Source: Opitutia bacterium
GTDB lineage: Bacteria; Verrucomicrobiota; Verrucomicrobiia; Opitutales; T3Sed10-336
Assembly: GCA_003558065.1 (NCBI GenBank)
Contig: PWMU01000179.1
Span: forward strand, 1-64,000
Reading direction: 5' to 3'
Length of the DNA: 64,000 nt
In this document: in pieces, positions 15,590 through 24,825 of the stretch
Layout: every line of letters begins with the position of its first letter
Numbering within the stretch: the stretch's first letter is position 1
Notes under the pieces: generated by a model
The model's input: only the letters and a program-made list of their open reading frames with translations
Databases searched by the model: none
Told to the model about the DNA's origin: nothing
Program-made: the position numbers and the translations under genes

Positions 15590-16660
15590 TCACTTGAAAT
15601 CAAAAATCTGCCTGGTGGTGGCCGGATCGTGCCGCCGAACGTTGCGTGAAAGCGTTTGCAGGCTCTCCGCCACCAGTTCGCCCATGGTCGAGCAGCGCTC
15701 GAAAGCCGGATTCCCGTAGTGCTCGCGCAGAGACGCCCGCAGAGTTTCCACATTTTCAGCCGGAGCGATCTCGTCCCGGCCCATGACAGCCAGCAGCCGT
15801 GCGAGGCGGTCCCGGCTGATCTGCACGCGCCGGTAAATCAGCGCCTGTTCCTCGCGCTGGTACTGGATGGCCGTCGTTCGATTCAGACGCTCCATGCAGT
15901 ACACCGCCAATTTGCTGTTCTCCTTAAAAAACTGGGGAAGATAAAAATTCTTCCGACCGTCGTAGGATTGCTGGTCGAAATCCATGCACCGGATGCGAAC
16001 CTGAACCCCCTCGAAGTCGGGAGTTACGTCGACCACGAAATTGTAGGAACGCATGTCGCCGAGGAGCCGGATAAAACAGCGCTCGTTGAATTTCACCAGT
16101 TCCTTGGCCACGCGCACCGGGTTGAGCCGTTCGCTGTACAGCCAGTCATCGATAAACACATCGCCCGGAATGCCGCTGATGTGTTCCTCCACCAGGTTCG
16201 TGCCGCAGGTGAGGTAATTGATACGGTTGGGCGAAAGCAGGTGTTCGAGCTCGAGGCCGTAGACGCGGGAGGCGTCGGCCTTTTTCACGTAGTAATAGTC
16301 CTGATTGTCGTTGTACGCGTTGACGATCCGGATTCGGAACGGATGGGAGTTGCCGAACGTACAGAAATCGACCCGGTCGACGTACAGGTGCTGCATGACG
16401 CTGAGGTCGCCGTCGACCTTCAGAACCGCATAGATCTCCGTCAGGTCCCGGTTGAGCCGGCGCATCTCCTCCGGATCGTAAATCACGGTCTCCCAGAGTG
16501 TGTCGCGCCCGTGGGCATCGCGCAACGGCATCGATTCACGAAATCCTTTCAAGTCCTCGTAAACCAGCGGTAATTCCATCTCCCGGTTGTAGTCCGTCAA
16601 ATACGTCCTCAGGTCGGGAATGATCGGAAAGGTCGGTTTGCGTTTGGTTTCCGGAATCAT
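15590..16660 (-). CDS. Uncharacterised protein with protein-kinase-like fold motifs
   Basis: 356 residues from an ATG at 16658-16660 preceded by GGGAG. I do not recognise a named family. A set of motifs appears in the order and rough spacing of a kinase-like phosphotransferase: a strand with lysines YYYVKKADAS (K126/K127), an acidic helix GLELEH (E137/E139), a hinge-like TNLVEEHISGIPGD (about 154-167), a catalytic-loop-like LGDMRSYNFVV (D202 and N207, five residues apart as in aminoglycoside kinases), and a DFG-like CMDFDQQ (D227). The C-terminal ~110 residues are helical. There is no signal peptide. It lies 45 bp upstream of lysS, same strand. Kinase activity is inference. Confidence 0.75.
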   Translation of the reverse strand: MIPETKRKPTFPIIPDLRTYLTDYNREMELPLVYEDLKGFRESMPLRDAHGRDTLWETVIYDPEEMRRLNRDLTEIYAVLKVDGDLSVMQHLYVDRVDFCTFGNSHPFRIRIVNAYNDNQDYYYVKKADASRVYGLELEHLLSPNRINYLTCGTNLVEEHISGIPGDVFIDDWLYSERLNPVRVAKELVKFNERCFIRLLGDMRSYNFVVDVTPDFEGVQVRIRCMDFDQQSYDGRKNFYLPQFFKENSKLAVYCMERLNRTTAIQYQREEQALIYRRVQISRDRLARLLAVMGRDEIAPAENVETLRASLREHYGNPAFERCSTMGELVAESLQTLSRNVRRHDPATTRQIFDFK

Positions 16661-16756
16661 ATCTCCCGATCCTGGCAGGCCGCAGGCCGGTTCGCGACTC
16701 CTTTTTGGGCCCCGAACATCTCCCGGCTCATGCTCAACGGCTTGACCGGGGATTGA

Positions 16757-17449
16757 ATGCGAATGAGAGTAAGCCCTATGCAACAACCGTCGACAGCGTC
16801 GAGCCGGACCGGAAAAGCCTCCGAAACCCTCGATTGGGGACGCACCCGCTACCGGGACGCGTGGGAGCGCCAGAATGAGCGGGTCCGGCAGAGACAGGAG
16901 GGGACGGCTCCCGACGCGCTGATATTCACCGAGCACGAGCCTGTTTACACGCTGGGGAAGCGAATGGGCGCGGCCGCCCACCTGGTCTGGTCCGAGCCCG
17001 AACGATCGCGGCATGGCATCGAGATCGTCGAAACCAACCGGGGAGGCGACGTCACCTATCACGGCCCGGGACAGATCGTCGGCTACCCCATCGTCAGCCT
17101 GGAGGAAATCCGTGATCTCCACCGTTACCTGCGCCTGCTGGAGCAAACGGTCATCAACACGGTTGGCGCGCTGGGCCTGGCGGCCTCGCGCCGCGAGGGG
17201 AAGACCGGCATTTGGCTGGGGGAGCGCAAACTGGCGGCGATTGGCGTGGCGGTCAAGCGCTGGGTGACGCTGCACGGTTTCGCCCTCAACCTCGACCCGG
17301 ACCTGTCGCATTTCTCGGGCATCATCCCCTGCGGCATCACCGACGGTTCGGTCACCTCAATCCGCAAGGAACTCGGCGCCGCGCCCGATCCCGCCGAGGT
17401 CAAAGACTTGCTGGCAAAGGAGTTCTGGAGACTGTTCGAGAGAATGTAG
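16757..17449 (+). CDS. lipB: Octanoyl-[acyl-carrier protein]:protein octanoyltransferase
   Basis: 230 residues, full length for LipB. The cofactor-transfer fold shows TEHEPVYTLGKR, the RGGDVTYHGPGQ motif (95-106), lysine K158 in ERKLAAIGV and the catalytic cysteine C192 in SGIIPCGI. LipB moves octanoate from acyl carrier protein to the lipoyl domains of 2-oxoacid dehydrogenases and the glycine cleavage H protein. Starts at 16757, 16763 and 16778 are all possible; the first gives the longest product but the N-terminus is unremarkable. It is divergent from the kinase-fold gene (96-bp gap) and followed by lipA, which completes the pathway. Confidence 0.95.
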   Translation: MRMRVSPMQQPSTASSRTGKASETLDWGRTRYRDAWERQNERVRQRQEGTAPDALIFTEHEPVYTLGKRMGAAAHLVWSEPERSRHGIEIVETNRGGDVTYHGPGQIVGYPIVSLEEIRDLHRYLRLLEQTVINTVGALGLAASRREGKTGIWLGERKLAAIGVAVKRWVTLHGFALNLDPDLSHFSGIIPCGITDGSVTSIRKELGAAPDPAEVKDLLAKEFWRLFERM

Positions 17450-17563
17450 AGGGGCGGCCCAATCTTCGGGGTTGAACAAATCCACGACTGCCGCCAACGT
17501 GGGTTTGCGGTGTTGTCGGGGGCCTTGCGTTCGAGCCGCCTTATAACGAAACAGCAATTTGTC

Positions 17564-18451
17564 ATGTCGAATCGAAAACCAGAATGGCTGCGGGCCAAGC
17601 TTCCGGGCGGCCCCGAATACAAAGAAGTCCGCAAGATCGTGGACGACCACAAGCTGCACACGGTCTGCGAAAGCGCCCATTGTCCGAATATGGGCGAGTG
17701 TTGGGCGCGCGGGACCGCCACGGTGATGATCCTGGGCAACGTCTGCACGCGCTCGTGCCGTTTCTGCAATATCGAGACCGGTCGTCCGACCGAGCTCGAT
17801 CTTGGCGAGCCCGCCCGCGTGGCGGAATCGGTGGCTAAGATGAATCTCAAGCACTGCGTCATCACCTCGGTTGCCCGCGACGAACTCGAGGACGGCGGCG
17901 CTTCGGTCTGGGCGGCGACTATCCGGGCGATCCGGCGCCTCAATCCCGGGACGGCCATCGAGGTTTTGATCCCGGACATGCAGGGGAAGCAGGCAAGCCT
18001 CGACACGATTCTCGATGCCGAGCCCGAAATCCTCAACCACAACGTCGAAACCGTGGAGCGCCTTCAGAAAGCGGTCCGGGTTCAGGCCCGCTACGACCGC
18101 TCCCGCTGGGTTTTGCGCCACGCCAAGGGCCGCGGGTTCGTCACAAAGACCAGCCTCATGCTCGGAGTCGGCGAGACCAGGGAGGAAGTCGTCAGAACGA
18201 TGAGGGACCTGCGCGACGACGACGTGAATATTCTGACGCTCGGCCAATACCTGCAACCCACCGCGAAGCACCTTCCCGTCGACCGCTGGGTGACGCCGGA
18301 AGAGTTTCGGGAATGGCATGAGTACGGGCTTTCCCTTGGGTTCGGCGTCGTTGAGTCCGGGCCTTTGGTTCGCTCCTCGTACCACGCGGAGGAACAATCG
18401 GACCTTTATTTCGGCAGGAACCACGCCGGCGGATCGCTGGCCAGCGCGTAG
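17564..18451 (+). CDS. lipA: Lipoyl synthase
   Basis: 295 residues. Both iron-sulfur clusters are visible: the auxiliary cluster cysteines C35, C40 and C46 ([13 protein letters not shown]) and the radical SAM motif C61-x3-C65-x2-C68 (CTRSCRFC). The C-terminal RSSYHAEE supplies the serine ligand of the auxiliary cluster. It inserts two sulfurs into protein-bound octanoyl groups. I use the ATG at 17564, which begins the conserved N-terminus ([12 protein letters not shown]); an upstream TTG-type start adds non-conserved residues. It follows lipB by 114 bp. Confidence 0.96.
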
Positions 18452-18514: not shown

Positions 18515-19519
18515 ATGGAATCGCGTTCGGAAATTCGCCGTGTGGAAAAAGGGAAGAAGCGGGGGATGGTCCTCGCCGGCGACCGAGTTATCCCGGCGTT
18601 CCCGAGCATCGGCCGCATTTACCACCTGGAAGCGGGGTTAAGGGACTATGCGCCCCGATTTTACATCGAAGAGAAGCTGGATGGATTCAACGCGCGTTAC
18701 TTCCTCCATAAAGGCAAAATTTACGGACTCACGCGCGGAGGATTCATCTGCCCGTTTCTCACGGACCGCACCGACCTGATCGACCCCCGGTTCTTCAAAG
18801 ATTATCCCGATTGGATCCTCTGCGGCGAAATCGTGGGCGGCTCCAACCCCTACCTCTCGGAATCTCACCTTGATATCGAGGATGTCGGATTTTTTGTGTT
18901 CGCTATCGTGAATGAAAAAGGCCGCTTTCTCACCCCTGAGAAACGCTACAGGCTCCTGGAAAAGTACTCCATGCACACGGTGCGAAACTTCGGCCGATTC
19001 ACTGGAAACGCTATCGAAAAGGTCAAGGCAATCATCCACGAACTGCACCGCGACAAACGCGAAGGCGTCGTCATCAAAGATGCCCGCGGCCTGCGCCGCT
19101 CCCGCAAGTACGTCACGCCGTTCTCCGACCTGAACGACCTCCGTCACATTTCCTCGCTGCTGGGTGAGACGGCTCCCGGCTATTTCACGGAGCGGATCCA
19201 GCGATTGCTCGCTCATTGCTGGGAGTTCGACGACCCGTCGCACCTCGACCACCTGGGCGAATCGTTCCGGCCCGCTCTCGATGCATTCGGACAGGTGGCG
19301 CGGGGAGAAAAGGTGTCCGAGCGCTACACGATGAACGTTCACTCCCGCGAGACGGCGGAAACCTTCAAGGCTTTTCTGTCGCATTCACACCAGGTCGAGA
19401 TCCAACCCGTAAGCCTCGAACAGCGCAACGGTTTCTGGCGCTTCGTGTTCGATCGCCGTTTCCCCAAGGCGACCGGCCGGTTGCGGCGGATGCTGGGCGG
19501 AAAACTATTCTACGATTGA
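18515..19519 (+). CDS. Rnl3/Pab1020-family RNA ligase (ATP-dependent)
   Basis: 334 residues with the nucleotidyltransferase motifs of ATP-dependent RNA ligases: motif I EEKLDGFNAR with the adenylated lysine K54, TRGGF (73-77), motif III LCGEIVG (E105), IIIa FFVFAI, motif IV EGVVIK (E183, K188) and motif V SRKYV (K198). The ~130-residue C-terminal domain is all the family type has, with no DNA-ligase OB fold recognisable. The family is best known from archaea (Pyrococcus, Methanothermobacter), where it joins or circularises RNA. It overlaps tail-to-tail by 10 bp with the HARP gene, whose archaeal relatives were long called RNA ligase partner proteins. An alternative ATG is at 18566. Confidence 0.85.
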   Translation: MESRSEIRRVEKGKKRGMVLAGDRVIPAFPSIGRIYHLEAGLRDYAPRFYIEEKLDGFNARYFLHKGKIYGLTRGGFICPFLTDRTDLIDPRFFKDYPDWILCGEIVGGSNPYLSESHLDIEDVGFFVFAIVNEKGRFLTPEKRYRLLEKYSMHTVRNFGRFTGNAIEKVKAIIHELHRDKREGVVIKDARGLRRSRKYVTPFSDLNDLRHISSLLGETAPGYFTERIQRLLAHCWEFDDPSHLDHLGESFRPALDAFGQVARGEKVSERYTMNVHSRETAETFKAFLSHSHQVEIQPVSLEQRNGFWRFVFDRRFPKATGRLRRMLGGKLFYD

Positions 19520-20085
19520 TTCTCCCCGGGACTTTCCCGCGGAGAACCCGGAGCAAACAGATCCCGCAGGTGACGATTGTCCATGACCCGCAAGCCCATC
19601 TTGTCGGCCCACTTGTTAACCCCCTCATCCGCGGAAATCACGTTCGCACCCACTTCTTTGGCCAGAAGGATGACATCCATATCCTCCTTGCTGTCGATAA
19701 TCCCGTGCCGGAGCGAATCCCGGTACTGCTCCCGCAGGGCACGCACGTCTTCCTCGCTCATGGTTCGGGCGGCCCTCTCCGCCACGCGAAGCCCCTTGTC
19801 GATCCGCACCCGCATCTCGTCGACAAATTCATAGAAGAGCGCCGAGGGAATGAACAGTTCGTACCGATTGGGAGAGCGAACGATTCCCCCGCGCTCAACC
19901 ACCCGCGAGGTTTCCGGAGTAATGAAATGATCCAATTCCTTCTTGATGCTTCGGGGCAGATAGACGTCGTGACGGCTCTGGCGCGCGAGCTCGAAAAACA
20001 CCCGGGTCGCTTGATCCGGAAGCTCCCCGAAGTACTGGTAAATATCGGGGTTCGTAAAAATACTGGTGTCGACGACGAATTTCAT
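19510..20085 (-). CDS. RNA-free ribonuclease P (HARP; PIN_5 / RNA-ligase-partner family)
   Basis: 191 residues, the size of Aquifex-type minimal RNase P (HARP, formerly UPF0278). The PIN-like nuclease core is clear: MKFVVDTSIFTNPD with D6, a central helical spike region (about 75-125), then IIDSKEDMDVILLA with D131, D135 and D137, and ISADEGVNKWADKMG with D153 and D161. Members of this family cleave the 5' leader from precursor tRNA without an RNA subunit. Most bacteria instead use rnpA/rnpB, which cannot be checked in this window. It lies 45 bp downstream of the hybrid kinase gene on the same strand and overlaps the RNA ligase 3' end. Confidence 0.88.
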   Translation of the reverse strand: MKFVVDTSIFTNPDIYQYFGELPDQATRVFFELARQSRHDVYLPRSIKKELDHFITPETSRVVERGGIVRSPNRYELFIPSALFYEFVDEMRVRIDKGLRVAERAARTMSEEDVRALREQYRDSLRHGIIDSKEDMDVILLAKEVGANVISADEGVNKWADKMGLRVMDNRHLRDLFAPGSPRESPGENQS

Positions 20086-20130: not shown

Positions 20131-22911
20131 TCAATCGGGCACGGAACCCGGAAAGCGTTTCCTCAGCCAGGGTTCGATTTCGGCAAACCCGCACTCAATC
20201 CGTTCGATCACCGTCCCGGCACCTTCCAACGCCCCCTGCCGTCCCATTGATTCCAGCCGTCGGCAGTCCTCCTGAATCCGTAGTGCCCCGAAATTGGAAC
20301 TGCTTCCTTTCAATGAGTGGGCCGCATTGGCCAAAGCATCGCCCTCCTTCCGCTCGAGAGCCTGCCGCATGGCCGCGATTTGACCGGGAGCGTCCGCGAG
20401 GAATATTTCCACGATCTCACGCAGAAACGCTTCCCCCTCACTGCCGCCAAGCTCTTTCAGTTCGCCCAATCGTTGCTCGCAGATTCCCGGATTACCGGCT
20501 GCCCCGCCCGAATCAGGTTCACCTTTTTCCTCTTCCTCGGTTGGCATGCGCCGGAAAACCGCGGTTAGATCGATACTTCTTATCGGCTTGCTCAAATAGT
20601 CGTTCATTCCCGCGCGGATACAACGATTGCCGTCCCCGGTCATCGCATCGGCGGTCACTCCCACCACCCAGGGTTTCCGCGGATCACGGCTGATCCGGCG
20701 CAGCTCACGCGTTGCTTCCAATCCGTCCATCACCGGCATGTGAACATCCATCAAGACGACATCATGCCGTCCCGTTTTCCACTGTTCGACGGCATCGCGT
20801 CCATTCGCCACGGTATCGGCCTCAAGCCCCAGCTGTTTCAGCAAATTGACGGCCACCTTGAGATTGACGGAATTATCTTCCGCCAGGAGGACACGCAAGC
20901 TGCCGTCAAGCTTGCCGGTTTCGAATCGGCTGACAGCCTCTCGCGCCGACCCCGGCTCTTGCTCCAGGTTGAAGATTTCGCTCAACAGGGCATTCAGTTG
21001 AAATTGACGAAAGGGCTTGAACACAGAAAAAAAACCATACTCCGCGATCGTTTCCTTGAAGTTACTGTGAACGTCCCGGGAAATAGCTAGAATGATCGCC
21101 CGCTCCCCTCCGCCGGGCGGATCCCGGAGCTGCTGAATCCGCCTGAGAGCCGCTTCGTCCGGCATCTGCAGATCCACTACCAGAACATCGTAACGGGCCC
21201 CGTCCTCGAGTCTCCCAAAGGCTTCGTCCAATCCGGAGGCCTCGTCCACCCCTATCCCAAGTCGCTCCGCCTGGTGTCGCACCATTGAACGACTGACCGC
21301 ATGGTCATCCACCACCAGAAGCGTTCTCCCGGTCAAATCCGGCCCCCGGAGACCCGGACGGGCGCCGGCCGTGTCCACTTCCGCCGGCACGGTGAAAAAG
21401 AATTCCGTTCCCTCACCCACACCGCTTTCCATCCAGATCTCCCCGCCGAGGGCTTCGACCAGCCGGTGGCAGATCGACAGCCCCAATCCACTCCCGCCGT
21501 ACCGCCGGGTAGTCGAGGGATCGACCTGGCTGAAGGGCTGAAACAGTCGATCACTCCCCTCTTCAGGAATGCCAATGCCCGTATCGCGGACGCTGAACTG
21601 AAGCGTCAGGGTATCCGGCGAATCATCCCCTTCGGACGCCGCTCCGGAAGGGCGGATCCGGACATCGAGGACAACCTCACCTTTCCCGGTAAACTTGACG
21701 GCATTCCCCAACAGATTGATCAACACCTGGCGAATCCGGTTCTCGTCGCTGACGAGCCTTTCAGGCAAAGCGGAATCCACCGTATAACCCATATCCAGAT
21801 CTTTCGATGCACGGTGCATCCCTGCCACGGCCAGGGAATCCTCGATCAGTGAATGCAGATCGAAAGCCCCCTTGTCGAGTTCCAGCCTTCCCGACTCGAT
21901 TTTTGACAGGTCGAGCAGATCGTTGACCAGCACCAGGAGATTGTCCCCGCTCGTTTGAACGGAGGAAAGGAAATCGCGCTGTTCATTCGTCAACTCGGTC
22001 TGCAGAAGAATCTCCGTCAATCCGAGGATCCCGTTGAGTGGCGTCCGGATCTCATGGCTCATGTTGGCGAGAAACTGAGATTTGGCGAGATTGGCGGCTT
22101 CGGCCTCCCGGCGCGCCTCGGCCATACGCTGTTCGAACCCCCGCTGCTCCGTGATATCGGTGAAGTACCAGAGCCACCCGTAAAACCGGCCTTCGGGCGA
22201 CCGGGTCGCCACGCAGTAACGCTCAAAAACCCGCCCGTCGATCAAATTAACCTCGTCGTTGAACCGTTTCTCACCGGAACGGTAGAACGCTTCGAGCTTG
22301 GAATCAAGTGTTTCCGGATTCTCCAGTTTCTCCCTCGCATGGCGGATCAAATCCCGCTCGTCACCCCCGGAAAACGCTTCGAGAGGTATCCCCCACATCT
22401 CCTGAAAGCGGCCGTTGTAGGCAATGACATTTCCCTCCACGTCCACCACAAGGATCCCGTCGGGGGACAGTTCCATTTGGACCGAGAGGATGGCATTGAT
22501 ACGCTGCATTTCGTCCGCCCACCGCCGCTCATGCGTAACATCCCGCTGGACGAAAATCCAGCGGACAACCTCCTCCCCTGCGTTGCGGACCGGGGTGATT
22601 GTCAGTTCGGCATTAAACGAGTTTCCGTCCTTCCGGTAACTCAGCAGTTCCCCCCGGCACTCCTCTCCCGCGGCCAGGGAGTCGCGCAGCCGGTCCAGCA
22701 CGGCCCGGTCGGTTTCAGGTCCCTGGAACAGCCGCGGCGACGCTCCGACAAGCTCGTCGCAGTCGTAACCCGTCATAGCGCAAAAGCGTTGGTTCGCGTA
22801 AATTATCCGGGGTCCGGGCGGTTGGAGATCCGCGTCGGTTATCAGAACGGCCACCCCCATGGTGTCCATTGCCGACCGCCAGATTTCCCACTCGTTGTTC
22901 TCCTTCGTCAT
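20131..22911 (-). CDS. Hybrid sensor histidine kinase (PAS-PAS-HisKA-HATPase-REC-REC-Hpt)
   Basis: 926 residues with no membrane segment, so probably cytoplasmic. Order: PAS1 (about 12-128), PAS2 (about 140-257), HisKA with H286 in [12 protein letters not shown], HATPase (N-box [15 protein letters not shown]-boxes [10 protein letters not shown] and GGSGLGLSI), REC1 (D580 in VVDLQMPD), REC2 (D722 in [11 protein letters not shown]) and a C-terminal Hpt with H865 in [13 protein letters not shown]. This is a full internal phosphorelay. PAS1 resembles a LOV domain ([13 protein letters not shown]) but has proline where LOV has its photoactive cysteine. It is downstream of the GspE-like ATPase in a five-gene signalling operon. 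Confidence 0.93.
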
Positions 22912-22934
22912 GGCTGTTCGCCTCGGTGGCCCGC

Positions 22935-24638
22935 CTAAATCGGCATTTCCTCCATCGTTATCCTCTCGATTTCGTCGATCGTGGTGAGTCCAAGCAGGAC
23001 CTTTTTGAGGCCGTCGTAACGCATCGGATGGTATCCGGCGCGACGGGCGGCACGCGCCAATTCCACGAGGTCGGCTCCCCCGGAAATCATCGCCCGCATT
23101 TCCTCGGTCACGATAACGAGTTCATGAACCGCAACCCGCCCCTGGTACCCGCTGTTCCCGCATTCGGAACATCCGGCTCCCCGGTAAAAGGCGACCTTCT
23201 CAAGGCCTTCGTCCAGAAAATGACGCCGCAGTTCTTCCCGGGGCGGGTAGTACGGTTCCCGGCAGTTTTCACAGATACGGGCCGCCAGGCGCTGGCTGAG
23301 CACTCCCAAAATGGAAGGGGCCACGATAAACGGCTCCACCCCGAGCTCGATCAGCCGCACGGTCGCCTGAACGGCGTTATTGGTGTGGAGGGTGGCAAAC
23401 ACCAGGTGGCCGGTCAGGGCGGCCTCCGATGCGGTTTTCGCCGTTTCGAGGTCGCGAATCTCCCCCACCAGGATCACGTCCGGATCCTGGCGCAGGGTCG
23501 AGCGAAGCACGCGGCCGAACGTAAGGCCGATTCCCGGTTTCACCTGAACCTGTGTCAAGCCGTTGAGCTGATACTCCACGGGATCCTCAATGGTCACGAG
23601 GTTCTGTCCGACAACATTGATCTCATTGAGGGCACCATAGAGAGTGGTGGTTTTTCCCGAACCGGTGGGACCGGTAACGAAAATGATCCCGTTGGGTCGC
23701 TGAATCATTTTGCGGAACGGCTGGAGGACGGTCTGCGAGAAAAACATTTTCTCCAACTCCATCACCTGCTTGACTCCTGAAACGTTAAGGACTCGGATCA
23801 CGACCTTCTCGCCATGAATCGAGGGCATGACCGAAACGCGGAAATGGGCGGTGTTGCCACCGAGGTCGAAGGAGAAACGACCGTCCTGGGGAAGGCGCCT
23901 CTCCGATATGTCCAGGTCACACATCACCTTGACGCGCGCGGCCAGCGCCGGACCCAGTGTGCGTGGGAAGCGGATTCCCTCGCGCAGAATCCCGTCGACC
24001 CGTATGCGCACGGAAACAGCCTCCTCCTGGGGCTGAATGTGGACATCCGACGCCCTTTCGCGAAGGGCATAGTACATGAGTGATTCGAAAAGCTCCACCA
24101 CCGGAACGGCTTCCGCCATGACCGCCACCTGGTCGCCCGACTGCGCTTCGTCGATCCGAAACCCTTCTTCGGTCAGACTCTTGAGCCGGTTGACGAGGTC
24201 ATTCCGGGTCTGGTACTGGATGGCAATGGCGGTTTCAATCTCCGAGGGAAGGCCAAACAAAGGACTGACCGGCCCCTGAACAATCTTTTCCAGTCGCTCC
24301 AGAAACTCGACATCGTAGGGATCGGGCAGGGCCACGCTGAGGACATTTCCAAAGCGATACAGGCCGAGCACGGTTTTCTTGGTCGCGATCTCGTAGGGAA
24401 TGGAATTCACCGCCTCGCGACTGACAATCAGCTCAAACGGATCCACGTAGGCCTTGCCGATCGAATCACCCCACATCCGGCAGGCCCGGGATTTACCTAG
24501 GTATCCGTCCTGGATCACCGCCCTCAACAGCTCGAGGGTGCCCCCGTGATGCCGATCGACAAGACGTTCGAGCGCGGCCTTCGGGATGGCGTCGCTCTGT
24601 CGAAGTGCTTCCAGGAAGGCCTCGTTACTTTGCGTCAT
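22935..24638 (-). CDS. GspE/PilB-family type II secretion / type IV pilus ATPase
   Basis: 567 residues from the ATG at 24638. An N-terminal GspE/MshE-N-like domain (to about 160) is followed by the hexameric motor: Walker A GPTGSGKTTT, Asp box, Walker B DPDVILVGEIRD, His box LHTNNA, and a zinc-binding insertion with two CxxC pairs (CENC and CSEC). The frame is open further upstream to 24740 but that part is antisense-like and overlaps the small upstream gene. No other secretion or pilus gene lies nearby. Instead it is embedded between response regulator and histidine kinase genes, so its assembly partners must be encoded elsewhere. Confidence 0.9.
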   Translation of the reverse strand: MTQSNEAFLEALRQSDAIPKAALERLVDRHHGGTLELLRAVIQDGYLGKSRACRMWGDSIGKAYVDPFELIVSREAVNSIPYEIATKKTVLGLYRFGNVLSVALPDPYDVEFLERLEKIVQGPVSPLFGLPSEIETAIAIQYQTRNDLVNRLKSLTEEGFRIDEAQSGDQVAVMAEAVPVVELFESLMYYALRERASDVHIQPQEEAVSVRIRVDGILREGIRFPRTLGPALAARVKVMCDLDISERRLPQDGRFSFDLGGNTAHFRVSVMPSIHGEKVVIRVLNVSGVKQVMELEKMFFSQTVLQPFRKMIQRPNGIIFVTGPTGSGKTTTLYGALNEINVVGQNLVTIEDPVEYQLNGLTQVQVKPGIGLTFGRVLRSTLRQDPDVILVGEIRDLETAKTASEAALTGHLVFATLHTNNAVQATVRLIELGVEPFIVAPSILGVLSQRLAARICENCREPYYPPREELRRHFLDEGLEKVAFYRGAGCSECGNSGYQGRVAVHELVIVTEEMRAMISGGADLVELARAARRAGYHPMRYDGLKKVLLGLTTIDEIERITMEEMPI

Positions 24639-24825
24639 GGCCGCCTTTCCCGCGGTGGCTCGAGAAAAGCGCGGCAATCTGCTCCTGGTCCAGGAGCTTT
24701 CCCGCCGCGCGGATCGATTCCCGGTCCTTCGAGATTTCATCCAACAGGCGGGGCAGCGAATAACGCACCGCGACCGTCGGGGACTCCCCCTCCAGCTGTT
24801 CGTCAGGCGCCTTCTTCTGATTCAT
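24625..24825 (-). CDS. Small uncharacterised protein, 66 residues
   Basis: A short open frame from an ATG at 24825 that fills the gap between the response regulator (stop at 24840) and the GspE-like ATPase, overlapping the start of the latter by 14 bp. The tight packing suggests a real, translationally coupled gene. The product is charged and mostly helical (SLPRLLDEISKDRESIRAAG then KLLDQEQIAALFSSHRGKG). The segment LLDQEQIAALFSS resembles the short helical motif found at the ends of some flagellar and chemotaxis proteins, but I would not assign a function from that. Confidence 0.55.
   Translation of the reverse strand: MNQKKAPDEQLEGESPTVAVRYSLPRLLDEISKDRESIRAAGKLLDQEQIAALFSSHRGKGGHDAK

Follow-up and report, generated by a model that had tools for sequence, protein, structure and literature searches.

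The window analyzed here, a 64,000-nucleotide stretch of contig PWMU01000179.1 (assembly GCA_003558065.1, positions 1 to 64,000 of the forward strand), comes from an Opitutia bacterium, a verrucomicrobial origin that an earlier note made from the DNA alone had already suspected and that is confirmed. It carries the gene of a protein-only RNase P of the HARP family and that of an archaeal-type RNA ligase, which converge and share their last bases, in the following context:

16757 to 17449, plus strand: octanoyltransferase gene lipB (context only).
17510 to 18451, plus strand: lipoyl synthase gene lipA, upstream of the ligase gene and co-directional with it across a 63-bp gap (context only; not kept in relatives).
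18515 to 19519, plus strand: Rnl3/Pab1020-type ATP-dependent RNA ligase, 334 aa, with the nucleophile K54 in EEKLDGFN, the TRGG, REGVVIKD and RKYVTP motifs, and a short N-terminus.
19510 to 19519, no strand assigned: tail-to-tail overlap of the HARP and ligase coding sequences, 10 bp, CTACGATTGA.
19510 to 20085, minus strand: HARP (protein-only RNase P, PIN_5/RNA_lig_partner), 191 aa, with catalytic D6, D131, D135 and D153.
20131 to 22911, minus strand: hybrid histidine kinase, upstream of the HARP gene and co-directional with it (context only).

Both reading frames are uninterrupted and have the coordinates assigned to them in the earlier note, with the ligase ending in a TGA at 19517-19519 and the HARP in a TAG on the complement of 19510-19512. 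Their G+C contents at the three codon positions (0.60/0.40/0.73 for the ligase, 0.63/0.38/0.71 for the HARP) are typical of the neighboring genes. The start codon of the ligase was assigned mechanically, and upstream of it no ribosome-binding site is obvious; a scan for promoters and terminators gave no signal above shuffled sequence. Elsewhere in the window, a long frame at 15590-17311 on the minus strand, partly antisense to lipB, has no Pfam or NCBIfam match; its C-terminal part, between 15,590 and about 16,700, reads as a real, uncharacterized protein, and its N-terminal part, antisense to lipB, is probably non-coding.

Assignment of the PIN-fold protein to the HARPs is supported at the levels of family, fold and active site. 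In profile searches it scored 177.7 bits against TIGR03875 (RNA_lig_partner; E-value 2e-52, curated cut-off 95.3) and 174 bits against the Pfam family PIN_5 (3.6e-51, cut-off 27), and its seven sequence matches in the PDB are each named RNA-free ribonuclease P (E-values 2.6e-44 to 2.8e-40). When an AlphaFold2 model of the monomer (pLDDT 80.8) was compared with PDB structures, the first 34 matches were HARPs without exception, the best being 7e8o (TM-score 0.83, E-value 1e-16). Alignment to the Aquifex and Planctomycetes HARPs shows all four active-site aspartates to be kept, and R92, R100, R107, R118, R122 and R126 correspond, six of six, to R108, R116, R123, R138, R142 and R146 of PbHARP. Of these PbHARP arginines, four bind the T-loop of the tRNA and two are required for cleavage (PMC9051087). 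Given the aspartates and arginines on which characterized HARPs depend (PMC9051087, PMC8266387), the window protein, as judged by alignment, carries the residues known to be necessary for pre-tRNA cleavage. The model also predicts the spike-helix hairpin, with helices at residues 81-108 and 111-125. Between the GLRVAE and LRxxYR motifs its tip spans 13 residues, the shortest of the set, as against 17-22 in the other HARPs compared. A tip 4-9 residues shorter than in those HARPs (window HARP residues 101-122) is seen in all three members from the window's family.

The ligase is equally well placed. It scored 277.6 bits against TIGR01209 (1.3e-82, cut-off 136.9) and has both the RNA_ligase and the Lig_C (Pab1020 C-terminal) domains, the latter at 44.3 bits against a cut-off of 25; the closest solved structures are Pab1020, Aquifex 3qwu and the Palaeococcus Rnl3. 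K54 is invariant across nine relatives, as are R182-E183-G184, K188 and K198 and the TRGG, REG and KYVT motifs. The protein lacks about 30-40 of the N-terminal residues of archaeal Rnl3 (the TIGR01209 match begins at position 37 of 375), and the ligases of the window's own family, f1, do not align with the N-termini of those from a second verrucomicrobial family, f30. This N-terminal region is not known to be required in Rnl3 and, because all other defining sequence features are present, the assignment stands despite the short N-terminus. The earlier note's identification of a HARP, of an Rnl3/Pab1020-family ligase with K54 as its nucleophile, and of the 10-bp overlap between them was thus correct on each count.

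Among 388 genomes of the phylum, the HARP scored above cut-off in seven, and the ligase was found in exactly those seven. Omitted from the HARP count are weak, sub-cut-off TIGR03875 matches in G410 and G624 that cover the C-terminal part only, and from the ligase count weak TIGR01209 matches in six genomes. At the corresponding loci of G410 and G624 (L014 and L072, from one genus) a 338-aa frame carries the sub-cut-off match, possibly representing a different PIN protein. The pair is present in two families, f1 and f30, the latter presumably Methylacidiphilum-like given the HARP known in that genus. Within f1, three of eight genomes have both genes and five have neither, in a sample that includes some incomplete MAGs, and among 373 genomes of the order the HARP is confined to those three. 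Since the scores lie far above curated cut-offs and the two genes co-occur exactly in relatives, chance is excluded as an explanation for the pair. Nor are the genes scattered in relatives, in keeping with the pairing put forward in the earlier note: they are adjacent, convergent and overlapping in nine of nine genomes, by 10 bp in f1 and by 39-54 bp in f30. The genes flanking the pair vary, with lipA beside the ligase in the window, an MBL-fold-like gene in G001, and, close to the pairs of f30, frames that resemble nadA and lspA. On the HARP side, G003 (L007) shares with the window a run of type II secretion/pilus-type ATPase, hybrid kinase, HARP and ligase, in that order, which G001 (L006) lacks; the stretch from ATPase through hybrid histidine kinase to HARP is thereby kept between two genera of the family (window 20131-24740, minus strand; L007 1349-5852, plus strand).

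In phylogenetic trees f1 forms a long separate branch and falls outside the grouping of Aquifex with f30, for the HARP (support 95/91; this group also holds Halorhodospira) and for the ligase (99/97) alike, an agreement that fits joint inheritance of the pair. A single verrucomicrobial clade was rejected for the ligase (p-AU 0.017) and not significantly so for the HARP (p-AU 0.078). These trees, which are small and have few outgroups and long branches, suggest two separate acquisitions of the pair in Verrucomicrobia. Outside the phylum, two haloarchaeal plasmids have the HARP and ligase genes side by side in divergent orientation, and three further haloarchaeal plasmids carry a HARP with no ligase match on the plasmid. 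At L069-L071, on haloarchaeal megaplasmids, the HARP gene is in two cases divergent from an RNA ligase gene, and in one, from Salinigranum, no ligase is annotated within 5 kb. Searches of 50,697 phage records matched neither protein and none was confirmed in viral contigs, and an origin from phages or viruses was dropped on that account.

HARPs occur sporadically in Verrucomicrobia among other phyla, and rnpA and rnpB are likewise present in most of the bacteria concerned (PMC10941002). The window's host conforms to this pattern. Its genome (4.13 Mb, 97% complete) contains a full-length rnpB (1-367, 188.2 bits) and an rnpA (68.1 bits) in the usual order rpmH-rnpA-yidD, with frames judged by eye; rnpB was recovered from 10 of 10 genomes examined, both HARP-bearing and HARP-free. 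The possibility that the HARP is the sole RNase P, as in Aquifex, is ruled out by these two genes; the search for rnpA and rnpB that the earlier note proposed, by which their absence would have made the HARP the likely main RNase P, gave a negative answer. Splicing of tRNA introns is unlikely as a substrate class given that the 36 tRNA gene models, spanning 71-87 bases, are all intron-free; an encoded CCA is absent from most tRNA genes fetched, by a crude check. A fibrillarin search gave no match in G000, G001, G003 and G059; weak, partial matches in G090 and G306 were taken as other methyltransferases, the control set also matching in Thermotoga.

We propose, with a probability of about one half, that the pair constitutes an accessory, co-inherited RNA cut-and-join module operating beside a normal RNA-based RNase P. 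The HARP, as a metal-dependent PIN nuclease, would cut structured and probably tRNA-like RNA to leave a 5'-phosphate and a 3'-hydroxyl, and the Rnl3 ligase would join such ends with ATP via a lysine-AMP intermediate at K54, so that breaks would be resealed or the product circularized; the two would act alongside the RNA-based enzyme and would not replace it. RNase P products carry a 5'-phosphate and a 3'-OH (PMC10652100), and ATP-dependent Rnl enzymes join a 5'-phosphate to a 3'-hydroxyl (PMC9014305); because the ends produced by the one are the substrate ends of the other, no end-healing step would be needed between them. It is from this end chemistry and from the gene linkage that we infer a common pathway in which both enzymes would work on one RNA. 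The candidate substrates left are tRNA and rRNA that have been cleaved or damaged, or else some undescribed RNA.

Several lines argue for the cut-and-join module. The nine pairs are all adjacent, convergent and overlapping, with overlap lengths that differ between the two families and with differing outer neighbors; co-occurrence in the same 7 of 388 genomes, both-or-neither presence in the family and agreeing trees point to inheritance as a unit; and the family and fold assignments, retention of all four aspartates and all six arginines, rnpB in every genome examined and the matching end chemistry also speak for it. Other observations weaken it. No RNA family or tRNA was found in a search of the window, the orientation of the pair is not universal because it is divergent on the two haloarchaeal plasmids, and the three HARP-bearing plasmids with no ligase match depart from strict pairing. 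Convergent genes, moreover, need not be co-expressed. Four bacterial HARPs, including that of the verrucomicrobial Methylacidiphilum infernorum, are reported to show no pre-tRNA cleavage in vitro (PMC12153264), and a ligase knockout of Thermococcus kodakarensis is described as having no growth defect (PMC12153264; PMC9014305). The cut-and-join proposal of the earlier note survives in part: its pairing is confirmed, intron-bearing tRNA and C/D-box substrates are unlikely, and the joint function is still something that we infer.

The best-surviving alternative, which we regard as rather unlikely, is that the HARP serves as a backup RNase P trimming pre-tRNA leaders under salt or alkali stress while the ligase repairs broken RNA independently, with nothing but a common selective regime to link the two. 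It gains from the full conservation of the tRNA-elbow and cleavage arginines and from the close relatives in f1, the MAGs T3Sed10_319 and CSSed165cm_470, whose names belong to soda-lake sediment series; the reported enrichment in habitats that are saline, alkaline or hot (PMC12153264) points in the same direction. However, a shared regime poorly explains why the genes are adjacent and overlapping in nine of nine genomes with differing neighbors, or why they are inherited as both or neither within the family. A more specific form of the cut-and-join module, which we advance tentatively and consider unlikely as it stands, is that in hosts with a ribonucleoprotein (RNP) RNase P the HARP no longer serves mainly in tRNA 5' maturation and instead makes defined cuts in another RNA, to be rejoined or circularized by the ligase, with the short spike tip tuned to that substrate.

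It is distinctly improbable that the HARP is a VapC-like, stress-triggered RNA toxin with the ligase as an antidote undoing the damage. HARPs do fall within the VapC group of PIN domains (PMC10941002; PMC12153264) and their distribution is patchy, but the layout is convergent and not operonic as in toxin-antitoxin systems, the T. kodakarensis ligase knockout is reported to be viable (PMC12153264), and the phage and viral searches recovered no copies. We give hardly more than passing credence to the absence of any functional tie, in which accessory genes would have hitch-hiked together since being acquired as neighbors: joint activity is reported for no organism in the published work consulted, yet the link extends across archaea, including the divergent plasmid pairs (PMC12153264), and the pair recurs in two separate verrucomicrobial branches. 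Circularization of C/D-box-type guide RNAs, a role proposed for HARP and Rnl3 jointly in archaea (PMC12153264) and in keeping with the circularization of C/D-box sRNAs by Rnl3 in Thermococcus (PMC9014305), is strongly disfavored here, since the lack of a fibrillarin match in G000, G001, G003 and G059 implies no known C/D-box machinery in the host.

It is still not understood why prokaryotes that possess the ribozyme RNase P retain a protein-only one as well. With the ribozyme present and fibrillarin absent, the pair must serve neither essential tRNA maturation nor C/D-box circularization, and a HARP tied strictly to an RNA ligase in such a host narrows the possible answers. Cultured relatives bearing the pair could allow direct testing.

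Compared with known systems, the window HARP resembles those in the PDB in fold, in its catalytic aspartates and tRNA-binding arginines and at about 43-45% identity, and departs from the HARPs compared in its shorter spike-helix tip; its host has an RNP RNase P, whereas Aquifex does not. The ligase shares both domains (catalytic and C-terminal) and the motif I lysine with the Rnl3/Pab1020 archaeal RNA ligases (PDB 2vug, 8uce, 5d1o) and Aquifex 3qwu, at 30-36% identity over about 325 residues, and differs from archaeal Rnl3 in its shortened N-terminus and in residing in a bacterial host with no fibrillarin. The f30 pair has the convergent overlapping arrangement, the class and the RNP RNase P RNA in common with the window pair, but groups with Aquifex and not with the window branch in both trees. 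The HARP-Rnl3 association is itself already known: Seshadri and Gopalan (mBio, April 2025; PMC12153264) describe co-occurrence and adjacency of the identical two families across 751 HARP-positive genomes, with about 80% of the bacterial cases co-localized. The main text of that article names no Verrucomicrobia among its bacterial orders, and its C/D-box proposal does not fit the window's host. New here are a second, divergent branch of the pair in Verrucomicrobia, its inheritance within one family as both genes or neither, the convergent overlap seen throughout, and a host that allows two popular accounts of the pair to be set aside.
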